Positions 8,322-18,088 of a stretch of DNA of 64,000 nt are shown piece after piece. This stretch comes from Limnobacter sp. SAORIC-580 (lineage in GTDB: Bacteria; Pseudomonadota; Gammaproteobacteria; Burkholderiales; Burkholderiaceae_B): positions 1,612,001 to 1,676,000 of the forward strand of contig NZ_CP053084.1 in the NCBI RefSeq assembly GCF_013004065.1. The letters run 5' to 3'. Both the position numbers and the translations under genes were made by a program. Position 1 is the stretch's first letter. Each line of letters starts with the position of its first letter. The notes below the pieces were generated by a model, which was given only the letters and a program-made list of their open reading frames with translations, was not told the origin of the DNA and ran no database searches.

Positions 8322-8702
8322 TTAGGCCAGGATGGGCGGTCGGTAAGGCAGCGCCAGGTCGGTACTGGGCAGGATTGAAGAGAAAGGAACGGAGATGAGA
8401 AGGTTGGATTGGATCAAACCAACTTGAACAACTGGAAGGTCGAGCTTGGCTTTGTAAATGGCATCACAACTGCAACAGGGCCTTTCATTGGACTCTTGTT
8501 CGTCCGAAACAGCATGGTGGGCAGTTTGGTCTGACATGTGCTCGATGCAATGCTCGGACGAAAGTGATGAAGGATCCGACTCATCCGAGGTTTGCTTGAA
8601 GGAACCGGTATGACATCCGACCATGACCGCAAACGCCGTACCCTGAAAAATAACAGAGGCGGCGATTACAAACATCAACAGTGATTTGATCACTTTGGTC
8701 AT
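8322..8702 (-). CDS. Cys/His-rich small exported protein (CopL-like organisation)
   Basis: 126-residue protein with an N-terminal hydrophobic segment (residues 7-26) and a mature part rich in candidate metal ligands: GCHTG, EHCIEHMS, TAHHAV and RPCCSCD. The layout (signal, His/Cys cluster, hydrophobic C-terminal patch ending in PYRPPILA) is like short proteins annotated as CopL or DUF2946 that precede copper genes, but I cannot assign the family with confidence. It lies 53 bases before the unknown small protein and 64 bases after the next upstream gene, consistent with one operon. Confidence 0.6.
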   Translation of the reverse strand: MTKVIKSLLMFVIAASVIFQGTAFAVMVGCHTGSFKQTSDESDPSSLSSEHCIEHMSDQTAHHAVSDEQESNERPCCSCDAIYKAKLDLPVVQVGLIQSNLLISVPFSSILPSTDLALPYRPPILA

Positions 8703-11317: not shown

Positions 11318-11704
11318 CTATCTCAATGCAGTTAGTATCGCTTCTAGAGGGTTTTTTGCATTGACCAACGTCTTAAGGCAACTTGTGAGCTCTAAAGCCC
11401 CCCAACTGTCATTTAGACCTGAGCTTGGGTCAACCAAATGGTCGAACAATCGAGATGCTGGGTCAAAGTAAAACGAGCAAACCTTTCCGGTCACAAGGCG
11501 ATGTTCGACGTTGGGTCTGAAATACGCAGCTTGAACAGGTAAACAGTCTAAACCTGGTATCTCCAGATAAAAAGTACCCTCTAATGCGATGGTGATTTGG
11601 GCTGCCCAGTGCCGATGCATTGTGTTGTCTCCGACACTACCTCGGAATACACCGATGCCATCTGCAATCGACAAGTCACCCATCCAGTTCGTTTTTTCAC
11701 TCAC
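11318..11704 (-). pseudogene. AraC-type regulator, N-terminal cupin part only
   Basis: 128 residues with the cupin-like ligand-binding part of an AraC-family regulator: HRHWAAQITIALEG, then FRPNVEHRL and VCSFYFDPAS. The usual C-terminal pair of helix-turn-helix motifs (about 100 residues) is missing; the frame stops 13 bases beyond the kinase stop codon. It begins with GTG and has no good ribosome site. I read it as a remnant left by the rearrangement that joined the copper locus to the next cassette, though a stand-alone cupin cannot be excluded. Confidence 0.6.
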
Positions 11705-11726
11705 GTGAAACTTTACCCAAAAGACA

Positions 11727-11747
11727 ACCGGGCCGATGCGGCCCGGT
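11727..11747 (-). terminator. Rho-independent terminator after the micropeptide gene
   Basis: Perfect 8-base stem ACCGGGCC / GGCCCGGT with a five-base loop. On the minus strand it is followed by TGTCTTTTGGG, a short T-rich tract. It lies 12 bases downstream of the micropeptide stop codon and closes that transcription unit. Confidence 0.8.
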
Positions 11748-11759
11748 CTAACTAACGCT

Positions 11760-11843
11760 TTACGCGCAAAGTGGGCATTCTGCCAAGGCTACCCCTACAA
11801 GACCAAACACACCAACCGCGGCTGCGAACATTTTAACTTTCAT
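11760..11843 (-). CDS. 27-residue secreted Cys-x-x-Cys micropeptide
   Basis: Short gene below normal annotation limits. The product starts MKVKMF, continues as a 15-residue hydrophobic Ala/Gly/Val stretch, and ends ALAECPLCA. The first 21 residues form a textbook signal peptide with an Ala-x-Ala cleavage site, so the mature product would be only ECPLCA, a hexapeptide with a Cys-Pro-Leu-Cys metal or disulfide motif. Support for a real gene: a strong ribosome site (AAAGGAGA, seven bases before ATG), a CueR-type promoter/operator about 50-75 bases upstream, and a terminator 12 bases downstream. I recognise no family. It may be a secreted or membrane-held thiol chelator, or a leader peptide; the mature length makes either speculative. 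Confidence 0.65.
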   Translation of the reverse strand: MKVKMFAAAVGVFGLVGVALAECPLCA

Positions 11844-11886
11844 CACAAAATCTCCTTTAACAAGACAAGGGAACACTCCCATACAG

Positions 11887-11917
11887 ATCGTGGACCTTCC
11901 ATCCACTGGAAGGTCAA
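11887..11917 (-). promoter_or_regulatory. CueR/MerR-type promoter-operator for the micropeptide gene
   Basis: On the minus strand: -35 TTGACC (11912-11917) overlapping the perfect dyad ACCTTCC-N7-GGAAGGT (11894-11914), then a weak -10 (CACGAT, 11887-11892) at the long 19-base spacing that is the hallmark of promoters twisted open by MerR-family activators. The dyad has the same half-sites as the E. coli copA promoter bound by CueR. It begins 3 bases beyond the regulator's stop codon and reads only toward the micropeptide. Confidence 0.75.
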
Positions 11918-11920
11918 GCG

Positions 11921-12388
11921 CTATTTTTTGGCATCGTTTCTGATGGGAATAATGTAGTCAGCAATTAGAAACTCACCTTCTGGTTCATTCGGGTTTTGTG
12001 CAAGTTCATGCGCAATTGCAGCATTATTCGCCCGAATGTCAGTCAACTTTTGTTCTAGCGCCTCGAGGTGAATCTTCACTTGCTGGACTTCAATTAATTT
12101 TAACGCGATTAATTCGTCTACTTTCGCTCTGGAGCCACAACCGCAGGCTGGTCCCTGATCGTAATAATCCAGCACTGACTGGATTTCCTTGATCGAGAAG
12201 TCAAGTTCGCGTGCCTTTTTGACAAAATCAAGTCTGGACAAGTCCTCTTGCCCGAAAACGCGGTTTTTGCCGGAGGTAAACCAAGACTCGGAAGTAGCCC
12301 TTTTCGGTGCAATCAAGCCCTGGTCCTCGTAGAATCGAATAGTTTTAGGACTCAAACCGAGTTTCTTAGCTACTTCGCTGATTTTCAT
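11921..12388 (-). CDS. MerR-family metal-responsive regulator with an atypical Cys-Gly-Cys site
   Basis: 155 residues. The N-terminal winged helix-turn-helix is canonical (KISEVAKKLGLSPKTIRFYEDQGLI), followed by the dimerisation coiled coil (about residues 92-125). CueR-like sensors use two Cys in a loop near residues 112-120; here those are absent, and the only two cysteines are Cys82 and Cys84 in GPACGCGSR, at the start of the dimer helix where MerR has Cys82. The tail is acidic and hydrophobic without Cys or His-rich segment. The immediate downstream CueR-type operator and micropeptide gene are its likely targets. The inducing metal cannot be read from sequence. Confidence 0.85.
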   Translation of the reverse strand: MKISEVAKKLGLSPKTIRFYEDQGLIAPKRATSESWFTSGKNRVFGQEDLSRLDFVKKARELDFSIKEIQSVLDYYDQGPACGCGSRAKVDELIALKLIEVQQVKIHLEALEQKLTDIRANNAAIAHELAQNPNEPEGEFLIADYIIPIRNDAKK

Positions 12389-12455: not shown

Positions 12456-13946
12456 TCAATCGATTTGGATATTAAACAAACGGTATTGATTCTGAACTTT
12501 TTGAAGTGATAGCAACGCCCGACTTCTTGGTGGAAAGTGATCCGGTTTTTCTCCACATTCAATTCTATTAAGCCACACCCTAGCGTCATGAATGTAAGAC
12601 TTTACAAGTTCATCGCACATAGAATCTAAGGCAAGCATCTGTTCTGAAGAAAAGTTGGGTATAGCAAATTCTTGAAATTTTACCCTGTTAAAACTAAAAA
12701 GAGTATCGATTTTATTTTCAGAAATATTACTTTTTACTGGAATGAATGAGGCGGATTTTACCAAATCCTCATTCATTAAATGAAAATTATTAAAATATTG
12801 CAAGCGCCTGCTACGAATGCTGGTGTAAAGAGGAGGAAGCCACAACTCAGTAAGCCAATCTATTAATAGATCATGAATCAGCACGCCACAATATAGGCCC
12901 TTGCTATCAGAAGATGTCCATATTCCATCATTTTCATGTAAATACCAGAATTTTTCAGTTTTATTTATTAAGGCTAATTTTAATTCGTCGAAGAAACTAA
13001 GTAAAGATTGAATAAATGACGCTTCTTTTTTTCGATGAAGGTAACAGAAAGATGAATAAACCACAGGAAGAGCAACAAACTGGAAATAAGTGAAGTTTTC
13101 AAAAAATGAAAAACCAGAATTGTTAGAAATTGAGAGTGAATTTATTTTTCTGATCGCGTTAGTTGGAATCGTAAACTCACGAAGAGACTCTGGGAGTGAT
13201 AATTCTTTTACTAAAACGAAATGTGCGCATTGTTCGGGAATAGCACAATCCATATTTTTGAATGTATGAAGATGTTTGCCTAATTTTTTATCGCAAATTT
13301 CTTTCAAAGAAAAATTCCATTTGTCTAGGTCGTTAAGGACAGTGGAGAACTGACTTGGTACATTATGCTTTTTCGTTTGTGGTGTAGGGAAATCTGGGCA
13401 AAAAATGCGAATAAAGTTTATGTTGCATTTGACACTTCTTTCTTTTAACCGAATGACTCGATGATTACAAGAGAAAATTTCAAACTTTACGTTGTGAAAT
13501 AGGCATCGATCTAAGTACTTCAATGACGCATGTTCTGGCAGTTTGTAACTTTTAATGCATTCTGGACAATAACGAATAATTTTTTCTTGATGACGTGTAT
13601 TCACGTAGTAGTCTTGTATTAAAGGAATTCCAAGAATATTTAAATCGCCAGAACTTTTTGTAATTAAATTATTTTGTATGTAAGCCTGGTTACTAAAGAT
13701 TGAGAAAAGATACTTTAAAGAACGATGCTCAGATAAATTTAGGTTAAAAATATCAATGGAAAAGTATTGATTAAAAAATTCATTGACTTGTTCAATTTTT
13801 AACTTATTGAGTAATGCAAATTTCGCTAGCAAAAAATATGTATTGTCATTAGCATCGTACAGCTCTGATCTCCAGTTGAAGAGTTGATATTTATATTGTT
13901 GTTCTTTATGAGAATTTATCTCAATCAATCTGTGGAAGTTGTCCAT
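12456..13946 (-). CDS. tniQ: TniQ/TnsD-family transposition target selector
   Basis: 496 residues, AT-rich gene. The N-terminal TniQ domain carries a zinc-finger arrangement Cys127-x2-Cys130 (RYCPEC) and Cys148-x2-His151 (DRCLFH), typical of TniQ/TnsD proteins that bridge target DNA and the AAA+ regulator. The length is intermediate between short TniQ (about 400) and TnsD, with a C-terminal half I cannot assign to a known DNA-binding fold. It overlaps tniB by 22 bases and ends the leftward tniA-tniB-tniQ operon. There is no Cas gene nearby, so RNA-guided targeting is not indicated. Confidence 0.85.
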   Translation of the reverse strand: MDNFHRLIEINSHKEQQYKYQLFNWRSELYDANDNTYFLLAKFALLNKLKIEQVNEFFNQYFSIDIFNLNLSEHRSLKYLFSIFSNQAYIQNNLITKSSGDLNILGIPLIQDYYVNTRHQEKIIRYCPECIKSYKLPEHASLKYLDRCLFHNVKFEIFSCNHRVIRLKERSVKCNINFIRIFCPDFPTPQTKKHNVPSQFSTVLNDLDKWNFSLKEICDKKLGKHLHTFKNMDCAIPEQCAHFVLVKELSLPESLREFTIPTNAIRKINSLSISNNSGFSFFENFTYFQFVALPVVYSSFCYLHRKKEASFIQSLLSFFDELKLALINKTEKFWYLHENDGIWTSSDSKGLYCGVLIHDLLIDWLTELWLPPLYTSIRSRRLQYFNNFHLMNEDLVKSASFIPVKSNISENKIDTLFSFNRVKFQEFAIPNFSSEQMLALDSMCDELVKSYIHDARVWLNRIECGEKPDHFPPRSRALLSLQKVQNQYRLFNIQID

Positions 13947-14908
13947 ATCTGTGACGTAAGGTTTTGTTGAACAAGTATATTTGAAATATATTGTGAATTC
14001 AGGTTCGACTCCAGATGATCAAATGACTTATTGCCCATATCTTTTAATATTCTCTCAATTAAATTTGCGATTTGATTCATGGGAATTTCAATCTGATCCG
14101 ATTTTGGTTTAAACGATTTGAATGCTAAATTGTACTTTTCAATCAGTTCATTCCAAATTAAGAATGCCAAGCTTGTTAAACGAAAGCCATCATCAAAAGC
14201 GTCTGATAAAAAATACTTTGTATAACTTGCACCGCTATTTTCTGGCCACTCGGAATCCTTATCGTATCCTTCTAGAATGTATTCCAGTTCATTTAATGAT
14301 CTAATTCCGTGAAATCGAGCATGGTGCATTAGAAATCTTGTTACGATATGTGCATCACCCGTTCTTGCAAAAAAATTGGGTTGGAATGAAATTTGATGTG
14401 AGCCTACTGAAATGATACTTAACCTATACCCTTCCAGATCGAGCTCATTTTGTAAGCTCAATAGCCAATGCCATTCATTTAGTAAAACCAATTGAGCCTC
14501 ATCAATCAGTATTACGATGTAGTTGTATTTGACTCTGTTGGCTAGTGTAATAAGATGTTGTTTGAATAGATATTTTGCCTCCATTTTTGCTTTTGGTTTG
14601 ATTGGGTTTTTGAACTCAAATCTTGAGGCCATTAGAAGAAGATTCCAGAATTCTCTCTCGGATTTGCTATTGGTTGGATGTGACCAAATCATCAAAGGGA
14701 ATTCAGTATCGAACTTTTCATTGAGTATCTTAGCCAAGAAGGATTTTATGCCTTTCGATTTTCCGAATCGAGAAGGTCCATAAATGTAGCCACCAGTCTG
14801 ACGCTGCTCAATCCATCTGGTGATTGTTTCGCACATTTCATGAATAGGTGGGGTATAAATTGCATATTCTTGTGTGCAAACCGGATGATCACGTGAAATC
14901 TCAGTCAT
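13925..14908 (-). CDS. tniB: TniB/TnsC-like AAA+ transposition regulator
   Basis: 327 residues. Walker A is GPSRFGKSK (residues 44-52), Walker B is YIVILIDEAQ (130-139), and a sensor-1-like segment (SIISVGSHQ) follows. Proteins of this type form ATP-dependent filaments that link the target selector TniQ to the transposase and confer target immunity. The start is 8 bases after the tniA stop codon, indicating a single operon. The C-terminal 70 residues, rich in Ile and Asn, may contact TniQ. Confidence 0.88.
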   Translation of the reverse strand: MTEISRDHPVCTQEYAIYTPPIHEMCETITRWIEQRQTGGYIYGPSRFGKSKGIKSFLAKILNEKFDTEFPLMIWSHPTNSKSEREFWNLLLMASRFEFKNPIKPKAKMEAKYLFKQHLITLANRVKYNYIVILIDEAQLVLLNEWHWLLSLQNELDLEGYRLSIISVGSHQISFQPNFFARTGDAHIVTRFLMHHARFHGIRSLNELEYILEGYDKDSEWPENSGASYTKYFLSDAFDDGFRLTSLAFLIWNELIEKYNLAFKSFKPKSDQIEIPMNQIANLIERILKDMGNKSFDHLESNLNSQYISNILVQQNLTSQIWTTSTD

Positions 14909-14916
14909 CGTCGTCT

Positions 14917-17010
14917 CTATTTATTTTCGGCTTTTCGTCGTGGTGGAAGTGATGCGGAATTTTGGGTATGCGCTGTAGCGTCGGAGGTGTGGGGTGCGAT
15001 ATTCTGCTTATTCCTGCTAGCAGTATTGTTTTTGGTTGTAGAGCGTGACTTGGCTCTATCTTCAGTGTTGTCAGTAATCCGGCTTTCCATGCTTTTATTG
15101 GTTTCATTTGAAGCCATATCAGACTGTATGGTTTCGTTGTCAGGGACCTGATGGATAGTGTCGTTGGATTGAACCAGAAAATTTCGAGCTGTTAGATAGG
15201 CTGGATGAGGAGGAAACTTACCTCCTGATGCTTCCACCTCGGCAATGTAGGATTCCACCGCATCTTGTTGATTCTGCAGAGAGAATTTGCCTTGACGAAT
15301 TAATCCGCAGATTAGTCTTCGGGTCTCAAAGTTGTGAGGAACGCGATTCCATGGAGGTGATACGCGTAAATTGTCGATATGTTCACCAGTCAGTGAAGAT
15401 GCCTTGATGACCCTGGAGTCTGAATCAGAATCGGCTGTGATCCAGATTTTTTTCCCAGCCAAATCTAGTCTTTGACCCAATATTGGACTGGTGTAAATAC
15501 CATTCTCGAAATTGACGTATGGCCTCTTTCCGGCGTCCAGACCACCTTTAACCATGCACAGCTTTCTGTAACTGAAAAAAGTGTCAAGGTGTTGTGGATC
15601 AATCACTCTGGGCTGGAATGTCTTGCTAAGCACCAGATATTGCAGGTACTGAAGTGGTGATCGACCACTAAGTCTTGAGTGGATTCTCGCGTTGTAATTA
15701 GCAATGATGATGTCGAGGAGTTCTTCTGCATACTCGTATTGGAACTCTGAGGCTACTGCCACTCCGATGGGGTCTCTGCCCTTCGTTGCACCAGGGTAAT
15801 TTCCTGTTGTGTTGGAAATTTTCTGAAATCCGAATATTCCGAGTTTGTTAAAAAAGCTTTCAATAAATGGTCGGTCGTCTTTTGTTCGTCTTATCGCGTA
15901 CGAATTCTTCGGAGTAAGAAGAATTGACCCAACCGAATTTTTTAGTACTTCTGCAACTACCTTTGCTTTTTCGGCAAGTGCACCATCAATTGAGGTTTCG
16001 TCCCAGCATATGCCCACAAACTGCTTACCTAAAACACTGGGAAACCCGGCACCATCGATATAAAAGTCCTTGTCGGTGTGGTGTAGTTTTTTCTTCGCCC
16101 AGGGGGAAAGGGACTTCTTGATTACCCGAAGCACATCTTCTTTAGAAATCTCTTTTCGAAGACTCATGTGATATCCAAGCACCAATCGAGTCACCACCTC
16201 AATAATCACGATCACCCAGATTCTATGGATCAGTACGTTCTGGTAGCCACCCTCAAGTAAAGGAATCGCAACGGTGAAGCGCCCATCAATTTTGTGGGCG
16301 TCCATTTCTACACGTTGAAACGGGCGGTGAACTGGTCGATCAACACCATCTCCCGCCTGCATTTTCCTTTGAAGTTCATTTCCACCGTGTATCAGGATTG
16401 CCTTGCCAGGGTTTTCGTGAAGCACCTTATCAATGTATTTAATGATTGAGTGATATCCGTTCGTTTTAGTATTAAAAGGCCACTCCCCTTTGATTTCAAG
16501 ACCTTTCTCTCTAAGACTTTGGAGAAACCAGAGCCAAATCGATCGTTTTGAAGTTGACAACATTCCAAGCTTTTTTCGAGTATTGGGGACTTTAAGAATT
16601 TTTTTGTGTAAAGCCTCTCTGACGTCCGGATAGGTGTCTAGTAGCGTTTGAAAAGCGCCAACAGCACCGTGTCCCCACTGATTAATAACGATGGGTGAAC
16701 GTCTCTTGAATTGAACTATTCTTGTTTGTGGGATCAGTGCTCGCCAGCCGTAAATTTGGCCGTCTGGGTGATTGCAAATACACCGTTCAGTGATTAAGCG
16801 ATAGATTTGAGGCTCTGAGATACCATATTCTTTTCGAATCGTAGCGACTTTACTGCCGCTTAAATAGGCCTTGATTGCCTCTTTTCTATTGAGGAACTTG
16901 GCTAGCTTATCTGGAGCTAGTGAAGCTTCATCAAAGCCTGGCCAAACTGTAAAGTCAGCCCAGATGGTGTCACTTAAACCTTTGATGTGTCGAGTCGACT
17001 CGGAGGCCAT
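14917..17010 (-). CDS. tniA: TniA/TnsB-like DDE transposase
   Basis: 697 residues. N-terminal helix-turn-helix (about 44-75) and a second DNA-binding region (to about 195), an RNase-H-like integrase core (about 228-460) with Asp237 (VEMDAHKIDG), an Asp in CWDETSID (337 or 342) and Glu384 (RPFIESFF) as the DDE triad, a Mu-type C-terminal beta-barrel (about 480-570), and a low-complexity Ser/Asn/Thr-rich tail of about 90 residues such as TnsB uses to contact TnsC. It cuts and joins the 3' ends of the element. No TniR resolvase or TnsA endonuclease gene is visible. The 5' 624 bases are duplicated at 21461-22084. Confidence 0.92.
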   Translation of the reverse strand: MASESTRHIKGLSDTIWADFTVWPGFDEASLAPDKLAKFLNRKEAIKAYLSGSKVATIRKEYGISEPQIYRLITERCICNHPDGQIYGWRALIPQTRIVQFKRRSPIVINQWGHGAVGAFQTLLDTYPDVREALHKKILKVPNTRKKLGMLSTSKRSIWLWFLQSLREKGLEIKGEWPFNTKTNGYHSIIKYIDKVLHENPGKAILIHGGNELQRKMQAGDGVDRPVHRPFQRVEMDAHKIDGRFTVAIPLLEGGYQNVLIHRIWVIVIIEVVTRLVLGYHMSLRKEISKEDVLRVIKKSLSPWAKKKLHHTDKDFYIDGAGFPSVLGKQFVGICWDETSIDGALAEKAKVVAEVLKNSVGSILLTPKNSYAIRRTKDDRPFIESFFNKLGIFGFQKISNTTGNYPGATKGRDPIGVAVASEFQYEYAEELLDIIIANYNARIHSRLSGRSPLQYLQYLVLSKTFQPRVIDPQHLDTFFSYRKLCMVKGGLDAGKRPYVNFENGIYTSPILGQRLDLAGKKIWITADSDSDSRVIKASSLTGEHIDNLRVSPPWNRVPHNFETRRLICGLIRQGKFSLQNQQDAVESYIAEVEASGGKFPPHPAYLTARNFLVQSNDTIHQVPDNETIQSDMASNETNKSMESRITDNTEDRAKSRSTTKNNTASRNKQNIAPHTSDATAHTQNSASLPPRRKAENK

Positions 17011-17049: not shown

Positions 17050-17112
17050 CGGTTTTTCTCAGGTCGTGCCGTCGGCTAGGCTAGTTCGCTTTTCAAAAGA
17101 ATCCAAATATAT

Positions 17113-17132
17113 CTTGTATCGATCACTACAAG
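17113..17132. promoter_or_regulatory. Dyad upstream of chrB, candidate ChrB operator
   Basis: CTTGTA-N8-TACAAG, a perfect six-base inverted repeat, ends 17 bases before the chrB start codon. ChrB proteins act as chromate-responsive repressors of their own operon, so a dyad over the promoter region is expected. A -35-like TTGTAT lies within it and a TAGGAT hexamer follows at 16 bases, but that promoter would leave almost no leader, so the promoter assignment is weak. Confidence 0.45.
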
Positions 17133-17149
17133 TTGGTAGGATAAGCTAC

Positions 17150-18088
17150 ATGAATATGTGGCTTATCCTTATTATTAGCTTGTCAACTGAAAACGCAACT
17201 GCCCGCATGCGTGCCTGGCGCGCTTTGAAAGCAGCAGGCGCAGCGGTCTTACGGGATGGCGTTTATCTTTTGCCTAATCAGCCCAGCTTCCGTTCCACTT
17301 TCGATGCCGTCGCGGCAGATGTGGTTGCAAATGGCGGTAGTGCATATGTGCTAAGCGCCGGAGAGCCGTCTGACATCCATTTTCAAGAACAATTCGATCG
17401 CCGTGATGAGTATGCTCATTTGCTGGTTGACATCCAAACAGTGCGCAATGAGCTCACTGCCGATACAGCTTTGAGTGTTGCGAAACAAATCCGCAAGTTG
17501 CGCAAGACCTTTGCGGCAGTGATGGAAATCGATTTTTTCCCCGGCGAGGCGCAAAAACAGGCCGATGCCGCGCTTGTGGAATTGGAAGTGGCGGTCAATC
17601 GCGTCTTGTCACCTGATGAACCGCACCCCGTTATAGGGCAAGTTTTGAGCTTAAAGCTTGCCGACTATCAAGGCAAGACATGGGCGACTCGCCGCCGTCC
17701 CTGGGTAGACCGGTTGGCCAGTGCTTGGCTGATCCGTCGGTTTATCGACCAGGAGGCCACCATTCTCTGGCTTGCCCATCCATCTGACTGCCCGAGCGAT
17801 GCATTGGGCTTTGATTTTGACGGTGCCACCTTCAGCCACGTCGGCGTCAAAGTGACGTTTGAAGTCTTACTCGCCAGCTTTGGTTTGGATCGTCCCGGCT
17901 TGCAGCGCATTGGCACATTGGTCCATTACCTAGATGTCGGCGGCGTACAACCGCCTGAATCCGTGGGTATTGAAACTGTCTTGGCAGGACTGCGGGAATC
18001 GATTACCGATGACGATCAATTATTAGCATTAGCCAGCGGTGTGTTCGATGGCTTACTGGTTTCTTTTGAAAAGGTGCAAACTAAATGA
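17150..18088 (+). CDS. chrB: Chromate resistance regulator ChrB
   Basis: 312 residues. The N-terminal ChrB domain starts with the family signature (WLILIISLSTENATARMRAW and AAVLRDGVYLLP); the C-terminal Chrome_Resist domain carries TRRRPWVDRLASAWLIRRFID and FDFDGATFSHVG. ChrB is a chromate-sensing regulator and is needed for full resistance. The ATG at 17150 fits known ChrB N termini better than the frame-opening codon at 17066; an ATG at 17156 is an alternative. It overlaps chrA by four bases. Base composition is higher in G+C than in the tni genes, in line with a different origin. Confidence 0.92.
   Translation: MNMWLILIISLSTENATARMRAWRALKAAGAAVLRDGVYLLPNQPSFRSTFDAVAADVVANGGSAYVLSAGEPSDIHFQEQFDRRDEYAHLLVDIQTVRNELTADTALSVAKQIRKLRKTFAAVMEIDFFPGEAQKQADAALVELEVAVNRVLSPDEPHPVIGQVLSLKLADYQGKTWATRRRPWVDRLASAWLIRRFIDQEATILWLAHPSDCPSDALGFDFDGATFSHVGVKVTFEVLLASFGLDRPGLQRIGTLVHYLDVGGVQPPESVGIETVLAGLRESITDDDQLLALASGVFDGLLVSFEKVQTK

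Follow-up and report, generated by a model that had tools for sequence, protein, structure and literature searches.

Cassette Layout

The window, a stretch of 64,000 nucleotides from Limnobacter sp. SAORIC-580 (host genome 3.3 Mb, single contig), carries on its minus strand, at 12388..11726, a compact unit that by inspection of the sequence and its open reading frames comprises a MerR-family gene, a promoter with operator, a ribosome site, a 27-codon gene and a hairpin, with the following features.

11921..12388, minus strand: gene for a MerR-family regulator of 155 amino acids (open reading frame, Pfam)
11887..11917, minus strand: promoter of the peptide gene, from −35 to −10-like element (19-bp spacer to a hexamer starting with CA in 10 of 10 cassettes)
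11917-11912, minus strand: −35 hexamer TTGACC
11894..11914, minus strand: operator dyad ACCTTCC-N7-GGAAGGT (core of all copies TTCCAGT-N3-TGGAA)
11892-11887, minus strand: weak −10-like hexamer CACGAT
11869..11880, minus strand: second dyad GGGA-GTGT-TCCC in the presumed 5′ UTR, conserved
11852..11858, minus strand: ribosome site AAAGGAG (AGGAG invariant in 9 of 9 aligned copies)
11760..11843, minus strand: micropeptide gene MKVKMFAAAVGVFGLVGVALAECPLCA, 27 amino acids plus stop (open reading frame, conserved frame), with its ATG at 11843 and its stop codon at 11762-11760
11726..11748, minus strand: terminator-like hairpin of 10 pairs, 8 of them G-C, then GTCTTTT

Regulator gene, dyad with TTGACC, ribosome site, 27-codon gene and terminator had been named in an earlier note on this DNA, and each is found in the sequence as that note has it. 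The terminator-like hairpin alone proves little, since shuffling the region yields 0.7 sites of this kind on average, and the T-run 3′ of it is poor in the copies of several relatives. The second dyad reads GGGAnnnnTCCC and has equivalents in relatives, those of loci L011 and L013 also matching the right arm of the operator over about 9 bp (by eye). Folding of the presumed 5′ UTR in three copies (z-scores −0.71, 0.19 and −0.86) does not support strong structure.

Copies and Distribution

The host genome holds a second copy at C1:111668-112291, with a regulator 79% identical to that of the window. A scan of the genome collection returned 42 loci with MerR relatives, eight of which (L009–L016, 70–99% identity) carry the cassette, with the remaining 34 at 40% identity or less. 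Both copies of the host genome counted, this amounts to 10 distinct Limnobacter cassettes in eight genomes; the cassettes of L009, L010 and L015 share their sequences with those of genomes G001, G005 and G010, and the cassettes of L011, L013, L014 and L016 with those of G010, G014, G009 and G003. At L015 (G010:C6:52796-53262) the regulator gene is frameshifted and the peptide intact.

Searching with a profile of the peptide yields nine places in 7 of 16 Limnobacter genomes at 62.8–66 bits, the next-best match among 268 family genomes scoring 20.1 bits. Raw matches to this profile, found in 154 of the 268 family genomes, are mostly noise beside these nine strong places, and a match in G002 (E 0.76, 13.2 bits), which would make 8 of 16 genomes, was dropped on that ground. 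Peptide and regulator are paired throughout, with both present in 7 of the 16 Limnobacter genomes and neither in the other nine; three of the 16 fall below the completeness/contamination bar. The wider Burkholderiales family that the earlier note had in view did not materialize, in that the small-frame search, at the sensitivity used, returns Limnobacter only. When 399 genomes of the order and 369 of the class (sets that overlap the family set) were searched at E 0.001, no peptide was found outside this genus, and a wider cassette family in the order or class was rejected on the grounds that the peptide occurs only in Limnobacter among the genomes searched.

In a large protein set the regulator subfamily comprises entries P0001–P0021, with 70–100% identity over the aligned part; the seven that carry an organism name are all Limnobacter, and matches below the subfamily are at 45% or less. 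P0018–P0021 are fragments or frameshifted forms, and P0022 is a chimera that joins the start of a CDF protein to the end of a regulator, probably through assembly or rearrangement. The clusters P0018 (7 contigs) and P0020 (11 contigs) look like pieces of frameshifted regulators. A tblastn search of plasmids with the peptide consensus gave no match and a regulator search in plasmids only matches under 60% identity, and the corresponding search in viral contigs returned eight pattern stretches and no relative. Among 57 loci with more distant MerR genes, a signal-like reading frame ending in CxxC was seen at four, none of them convincing by eye.

Micropeptide

The earlier note had argued that the assembly of these parts is hard to explain by chance, and the relatives bear this out: operator, 19-bp spacing, ribosome site and an ATG 52–54 bp past the operator recur in 10 of 10 distinct cassettes, and over the 10 copies the first, second and third codon positions of the small frame contain 7, 4 and 19 variable columns. 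Pairs of diverged copies (8 of the 10 copies) have pS values of 0.28–0.93 and pN values of 0–0.13, with a Fisher probability near 1e-13 in the most extreme pair and one of 2e-7 in a second pair. The small frame is a protein gene under purifying selection, a chance reading frame being ruled out by the codon-position bias and the pS and pN values. Frame and both cysteine codons are kept beside the regulator in 10 of 10 cassettes, which is the conservation that the earlier note had asked for.

All seven distinct peptides share the CPLC motif unchanged, whereas residues 22 and 27 differ among them. As to the ECPLCA end that was originally predicted, the CPLC part stands, but the glutamate is private to the window copy, relatives ending in ACPLCA, VCPLCA or ACPLCS; compared with L009, the window peptide differs by one nonsynonymous change, A22E, and zero synonymous ones. 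The chain consists of two lysines, a hydrophobic stretch of about 17 residues and six residues beyond, and each of the seven distinct peptides retains an A-x-A signal-peptidase motif. This conserved motif suggests cleavage, though alanine is common at such places. The lipobox, with the pattern [LVI][ASTVI][GAS]C, is broken in three of the seven distinct peptides (LAEC in the window, MAVC in L013, MAAC in L016), and a conserved lipoprotein was rejected on the basis of this loss, the window's own peptide included. Signal peptidase I is thus favored, if there is any cleavage, given that A-x-A is kept in all seven and the lipobox is broken. A chain of 27 residues is shorter than the length hidden by the ribosome exit tunnel and probably leaves the ribosome before targeting begins, which makes co-translational export doubtful and insertion would be post-translational. 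Both topologies, tethered and cleaved, are expected to place CPLC on the periplasmic side.

Operator

The operator dyad lies inside a 19-bp spacer in 10 of 10 cassettes, with weak −10 hexamers, and in the window it extends to nine contiguous pairs around a five-base center. The perfect dyad first described from the window holds in so far as a dyad is kept in 10 of 10 copies, but the exact ACCTTCC-N7-GGAAGGT occurs only in four island copies, the other six having 6–9 contiguous pairs around TTCCAG-N3-CTGGAA. At L016 one operator pair is changed on both arms together, from C-G to A-T. Over nine aligned copies, the −35 and operator core has 17 invariant columns out of 21, compared with 22 out of 53 elsewhere in the leader and 53 out of 84 within the gene. 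The classification of the operator as CueR/HmrR type is borne out by its nearness to the HmrR signal, given in an excerpt of PMC1526738 as ACCTTCCAG-(3)-CTGGAAGG in a 19-bp spacer.

In the host genome, TTGACNTTCC-N7-GGAA has two exact matches, both at cassettes, and with one mismatch allowed the operator pattern has five sites vs four for a reversed-pattern control. The pattern TTGACMTTCC-N7-GGAA, which was derived from the cassettes themselves, occurs at 10 sites in the 16 Limnobacter genomes, nine at cassettes and one at G003:C27:85462, and at 0 sites in the nine Limnobacter genomes that are free of the cassette. The operator is near-private in these genomes, and going by the pattern matches the peptide looks like the regulator's sole strong target. 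Among the family genomes, TTGACMTTCC-N7-GGAA is present in 87 of 268; at least 17 of 40 sites in another genus precede copA- or copZ-like frames (by eye, among the 30 loci listed, from this one genus), and at the same 40 sites, again among the 30 loci listed, a small CxxC frame was seen once and judged spurious by eye. In G119:C1:560686-568944, from another genus, 11 occurrences of the operator pattern, eight of whose 10 spacings measure 672 bases, make up a long tandem repeat.

Regulator

Pfam MerR_1, MerR and MerR-DNA-bind all score above cut-off in the regulator, which corresponds to a winged HTH and a dimerization helix, and its PDB matches are MerR-family structures. All 13 aligned regulators have Cys82 and Cys84, and 12 of them have no other cysteine, the exception being P0006 with an additional C99 and C153 that are not loop-like. 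In the alignment Cys84 falls on the C77-79 site of PbrR691 and CadR (the "divalent" position) and Cys82 is extra. A cysteine at the C77-79 site is essential in tested divalent-responsive members, that is, regulators of +2 ions (PMC3431237, in excerpt). The metal-loop cysteines, C112 and C120 in CueR (PMC6899792, in excerpt), are absent, and 12 of the 13 aligned regulators have no cysteine past Cys84. Metal-sensing MerR proteins are recognized in an excerpt of PMC1526738 by at least two of three cation-binding cysteines, of which the present regulator has one, Cys84. It scores far under the cut-off of each of 13 matched NCBIfam models, including those of CueR (TIGR02044, 59 bits vs 147.4), CadR/PbrR (TIGR02047, 68.6 bits vs 151.45) and Hg MerR (TIGR02051, 65.7 bits vs 150.85), and by the tests applied is neither CueR, CadR nor Hg-MerR. 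A true CueR (154.4 bits) is encoded elsewhere in the genome, beside copA-type genes with a different putative operator.

Metal sensing appears the likeliest function of the regulator, and is not assured because the metal-loop cysteines are missing; the CxC pair could act as a redox or electrophile switch. Copper as deduced from the operator alone was rejected, given that the sensor does not fit CueR and that the true CueR lies elsewhere. As to the metal- or copper-handling role suggested in the earlier note, the operator is of copper type, but the sensor, devoid of metal-loop cysteines and with a cysteine at the "divalent" position, does not indicate copper.

With respect to DNA reading, Lys15 is invariant in 13 of 13 regulators, at a position where CadR has Glu. 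Lysine at alignment position 14 goes with C in the half-site (CueR) and glutamate with T (MerR, CadR-PbrR), as given in an excerpt of PMC5045206, and by our own mapping onto this alignment Lys15 would be the CueR-type DNA-reading residue. Proline at alignment position 13 and threonine at position 15 are not CueR-like, and a clean CueR-type reading is weakened because threonine at position 15 is under-represented with CueR-type bases (PMC5045206, in excerpt). The regulators share a conserved tail, EPxG(E/D)FLIxDYI(I/L)P. An AlphaFold model from 13 sequences (mean pLDDT 72.4, pTM 0.49) has a disordered tail at 137-155 and, owing to this and to its low confidence, does not give the arrangement of Cys82 and Cys84.

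Genomic Neighborhood

The cassette resides among metal genes. Each of the five non-island copies in the searched genomes is followed by a convergent GDCCVxC gene (NF041374), in Limnobacter a neighbor of the mercury operon. The cassette occurs in 7 of 8 genomes with a GDCCVxC gene vs 0 of 8 without (Fisher 0.0014, a calculation that treats related genomes and linked genes as independent). By eye, merT- and merR-like genes follow at L016 (L. litoralis) and a CDF gene with czc-like genes at L013. In G006, compared with the non-island locus of the host genome, the flanks are 97–98% identical and some 780 bp holding the cassette are missing; G006 keeps merT- and merR-like genes of which the host genome lacks about 700 bp at that place. 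Presence and absence are reciprocal between locus L114 (G006), with merT- and merR-like genes and no cassette, and locus L008 (G000), with the cassette but missing nearly all of merT and merR at the corresponding place.

The islands at L122 and L123, in two genomes, run in the order transposition-like genes, cassette, AraC, fatty-acid hydroxylase, GDCCVxC, merT and merR, followed after merR by a CadR-type regulator with CDF and then czc-like genes, and the merT frame in L123 is intact. In the island copies the AraC gene is co-directional and 3′ of the hairpin. The window copy is itself an island copy, with a truncated AraC frame after it, and it and the copy at G010:C6 have no GDCCVxC gene nearby, the one such gene per genome being elsewhere. 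The truncated frame (window 11318-11704, minus strand) is a 128-residue remnant of a 244-residue AraC-type regulator that is intact at L122:5484-6218 (islands of G001 and G005). Three transposition-like genes directly precede the cassette at 12456-17010, minus strand, in the same order as in G001 and G005: one with a weak rve match, an AAA ATPase, and a 496-residue protein that has no Pfam match and is TniQ/TnsD-like by eye. They are abutted by a ChrB gene (chromate resistance, Pfam) at 17066-18088, plus strand. A MerA-like frame enters the window at 1-1513 (L121:13658-15514) and is preceded, at a distance of about 600 bp, by a MerR-like frame (both by eye), which places mercury genes in this island as well, some 10 kb away from the cassette. 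At 8322-8702, minus strand, lies a gene for a small Cys/His-rich, exported-looking protein with a CopL score of 28.1 bits, under the cut-off of 40.

Proposed Mechanism and Alternatives

We propose that the cassette is a thiophile-responsive module of one regulator and one target that makes a periplasm-facing CPLC dithiol micropeptide, a reading in which regulator-operator binding, inducer, export, cleavage, chelation and benefit are inferred and to which we give about an even chance. What the data do show is that the gene is genuine and its peptide constrained, that it is always paired with this regulator subfamily, that the operator is near-private and that metal genes surround the cassette. 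A MerR-type dimer would bind TTCC-N7-GGAA in the over-long 19-bp spacer and hold RNA polymerase inactive. Once Cys82/Cys84 are occupied by a thiophilic ligand, for which soft metals such as Hg(II), Cd(II) or Cu(I) are the likeliest candidates, the regulator would distort the spacer and switch on the one monocistronic gene. The 27-residue peptide would be inserted N-in into the inner membrane with its Cys-Pro-Leu-Cys dithiol toward the periplasm, either tethered or, after cleavage by signal peptidase I, as a free hexapeptide, and at the envelope the dithiol would bind metal alongside mercury, CDF and Czc systems whose genes lie near the cassette. The peptide, then, probably helps to handle a thiol-loving metal at the cell envelope. 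Against the proposed mechanism count the finding of the module in only part of one genus, the frameshifted regulator next to an intact peptide at L015 (G010:C6), the mer genes of G006 at the same place without a cassette, and the operator, which taken alone points to copper. A more specific version, in which a free six-residue dithiol peptide (ACPLCA or ECPLCA) acts like glutathione, made from its own gene under a private MerR sensor with a new CxC site, strikes us as decidedly unlikely. If true, it would be a ribosomally made, unmodified, on-demand periplasmic metal-binding thiol that is released by signal peptidase.

The probabilities that we attach to rival explanations overlap with the proposed mechanism and are not meant to sum to one. 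Small membrane proteins of similar size are known, and the two lysines, the hydrophobic stretch of some 17 residues and the mere six residues beyond it would also suit an uncleaved single-pass anchor, of the same topology as in the proposed mechanism, whose CPLC terminus works on a partner protein, either a transporter or a thiol oxidoreductase, and is not a chelator. We regard this as somewhat unlikely on account of the A-x-A motif, kept in 7 of 7 distinct peptides, and because no constant membrane partner was seen beside the cassette, whose constant neighbor is the convergent GDCCVxC gene. A copper module, a special case of the soft-metal reading in which Cu(I)/Ag(I) would be the signal for the cassette regulator, or for CueR by crosstalk, and copper the metal bound by the peptide, draws on the nearness of the operator to the HmrR signal, on the copA/copZ-like genes that often follow the same pattern in one other genus, and on the two-component system and CopL-like gene near the window copy; it is unlikely in view of the absence of the two CueR loop cysteines, the CueR score of 59 bits vs a cut-off of 147.4, and the host's own CueR (154.4 bits), which sits beside copA-type genes with a different putative operator. 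Another reading has the CxC regulator respond to oxidants, electrophiles or thiol stress, with the peptide serving as a thiol/disulfide helper in the envelope and not as a metal binder. This would match regulators having only two cysteines in 12 of 13 cases, as CxC and none at the metal loop, yet Cys84 occupies a conserved metal-ligand position and the neighborhood is one of metal resistance, and we deem this improbable.

Two further explanations have far less to commend them. LAAC in four of the seven distinct peptides could serve as a lipobox, the product in most copies then being lipid-anchored CPLCA, but the window (LAEC), L013 (MAVC) and L016 (MAAC) deviate and A-x-A is conserved instead, making a lipopeptide very improbable. 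Small exported Cys-motif peptides with cis roles exist (PMC9426467, PMC9973294), and a cis-acting leader peptide of the CruR/CutF kind, a regulatory RNA or a small membrane toxin was weighed as well; we consider this the slightest of the chances discussed here. The leader peptide was rejected in view of the terminator-like hairpin and of the gene that comes next, which is convergent in all five non-island copies of the searched genomes, and the peptide also has no Pro-rich stalling end; with regard to a regulatory RNA, the substitutions favor protein, not RNA, and with regard to a toxin, no antitoxin gene was noticed.

Relation to Known Systems

Searches of open-licence papers, on this module or its kind and on MerR sensors, listed no description of the cassette, in line with the earlier note, to which no described family of this shape was known. 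The MerR-type response is known, and what differs here is the near-private operator and the minimal peptide output. MerR-type metal switches normally drive pumps, chaperones or enzymes. A switch that seems dedicated to one peptide, with no more than six residues past the signal for export, would set a lower bound on the size of a useful envelope metal or thiol factor, and the cassette would show how such tiny genes escape annotation.

Like MerP and other periplasmic CxxC carriers, the peptide presumably offers a CxxC dithiol to the periplasm and belongs to a mercury or heavy-metal context, but unlike MerP it is a micropeptide devoid of a folded domain, with at most six residues past the signal peptide. 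The nearest exported Cys-motif small proteins found are CruR (DUF2946) and CutF, which are likewise tied to metals. They act in cis on downstream genes via translation arrest or delay, whereas the cassette ends in a terminator-like hairpin and its non-island copies have no gene next to them in the same direction. Bufferins and methanobactin are ribosomally made metal-binding peptides, a property that the cassette peptide would share; it differs in being much shorter and in that no modification enzymes were noticed beside it.

The regulator seems to be a natural hybrid in which a CueR-type DNA reader is combined with a divalent-type, loop-less sensor, and by virtue of this combination it can test what sets metal choice in the MerR family. 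It resembles CueR/HmrR in operator type, 19-bp spacer and lysine at the DNA-reading position, but lacks the C112/C120 loop cysteines, falls far under the CueR cut-off and has as its target a micropeptide rather than copA/copZ. CadR, PbrR and PbrR691 are among its best sequence and structure matches, with Cys84 at the divalent-type position; the cassette regulator differs from these in having no further metal-loop cysteines, an extra Cys82, the EPxG(E/D)FLIxDYI(I/L)P tail and a CueR-type operator.
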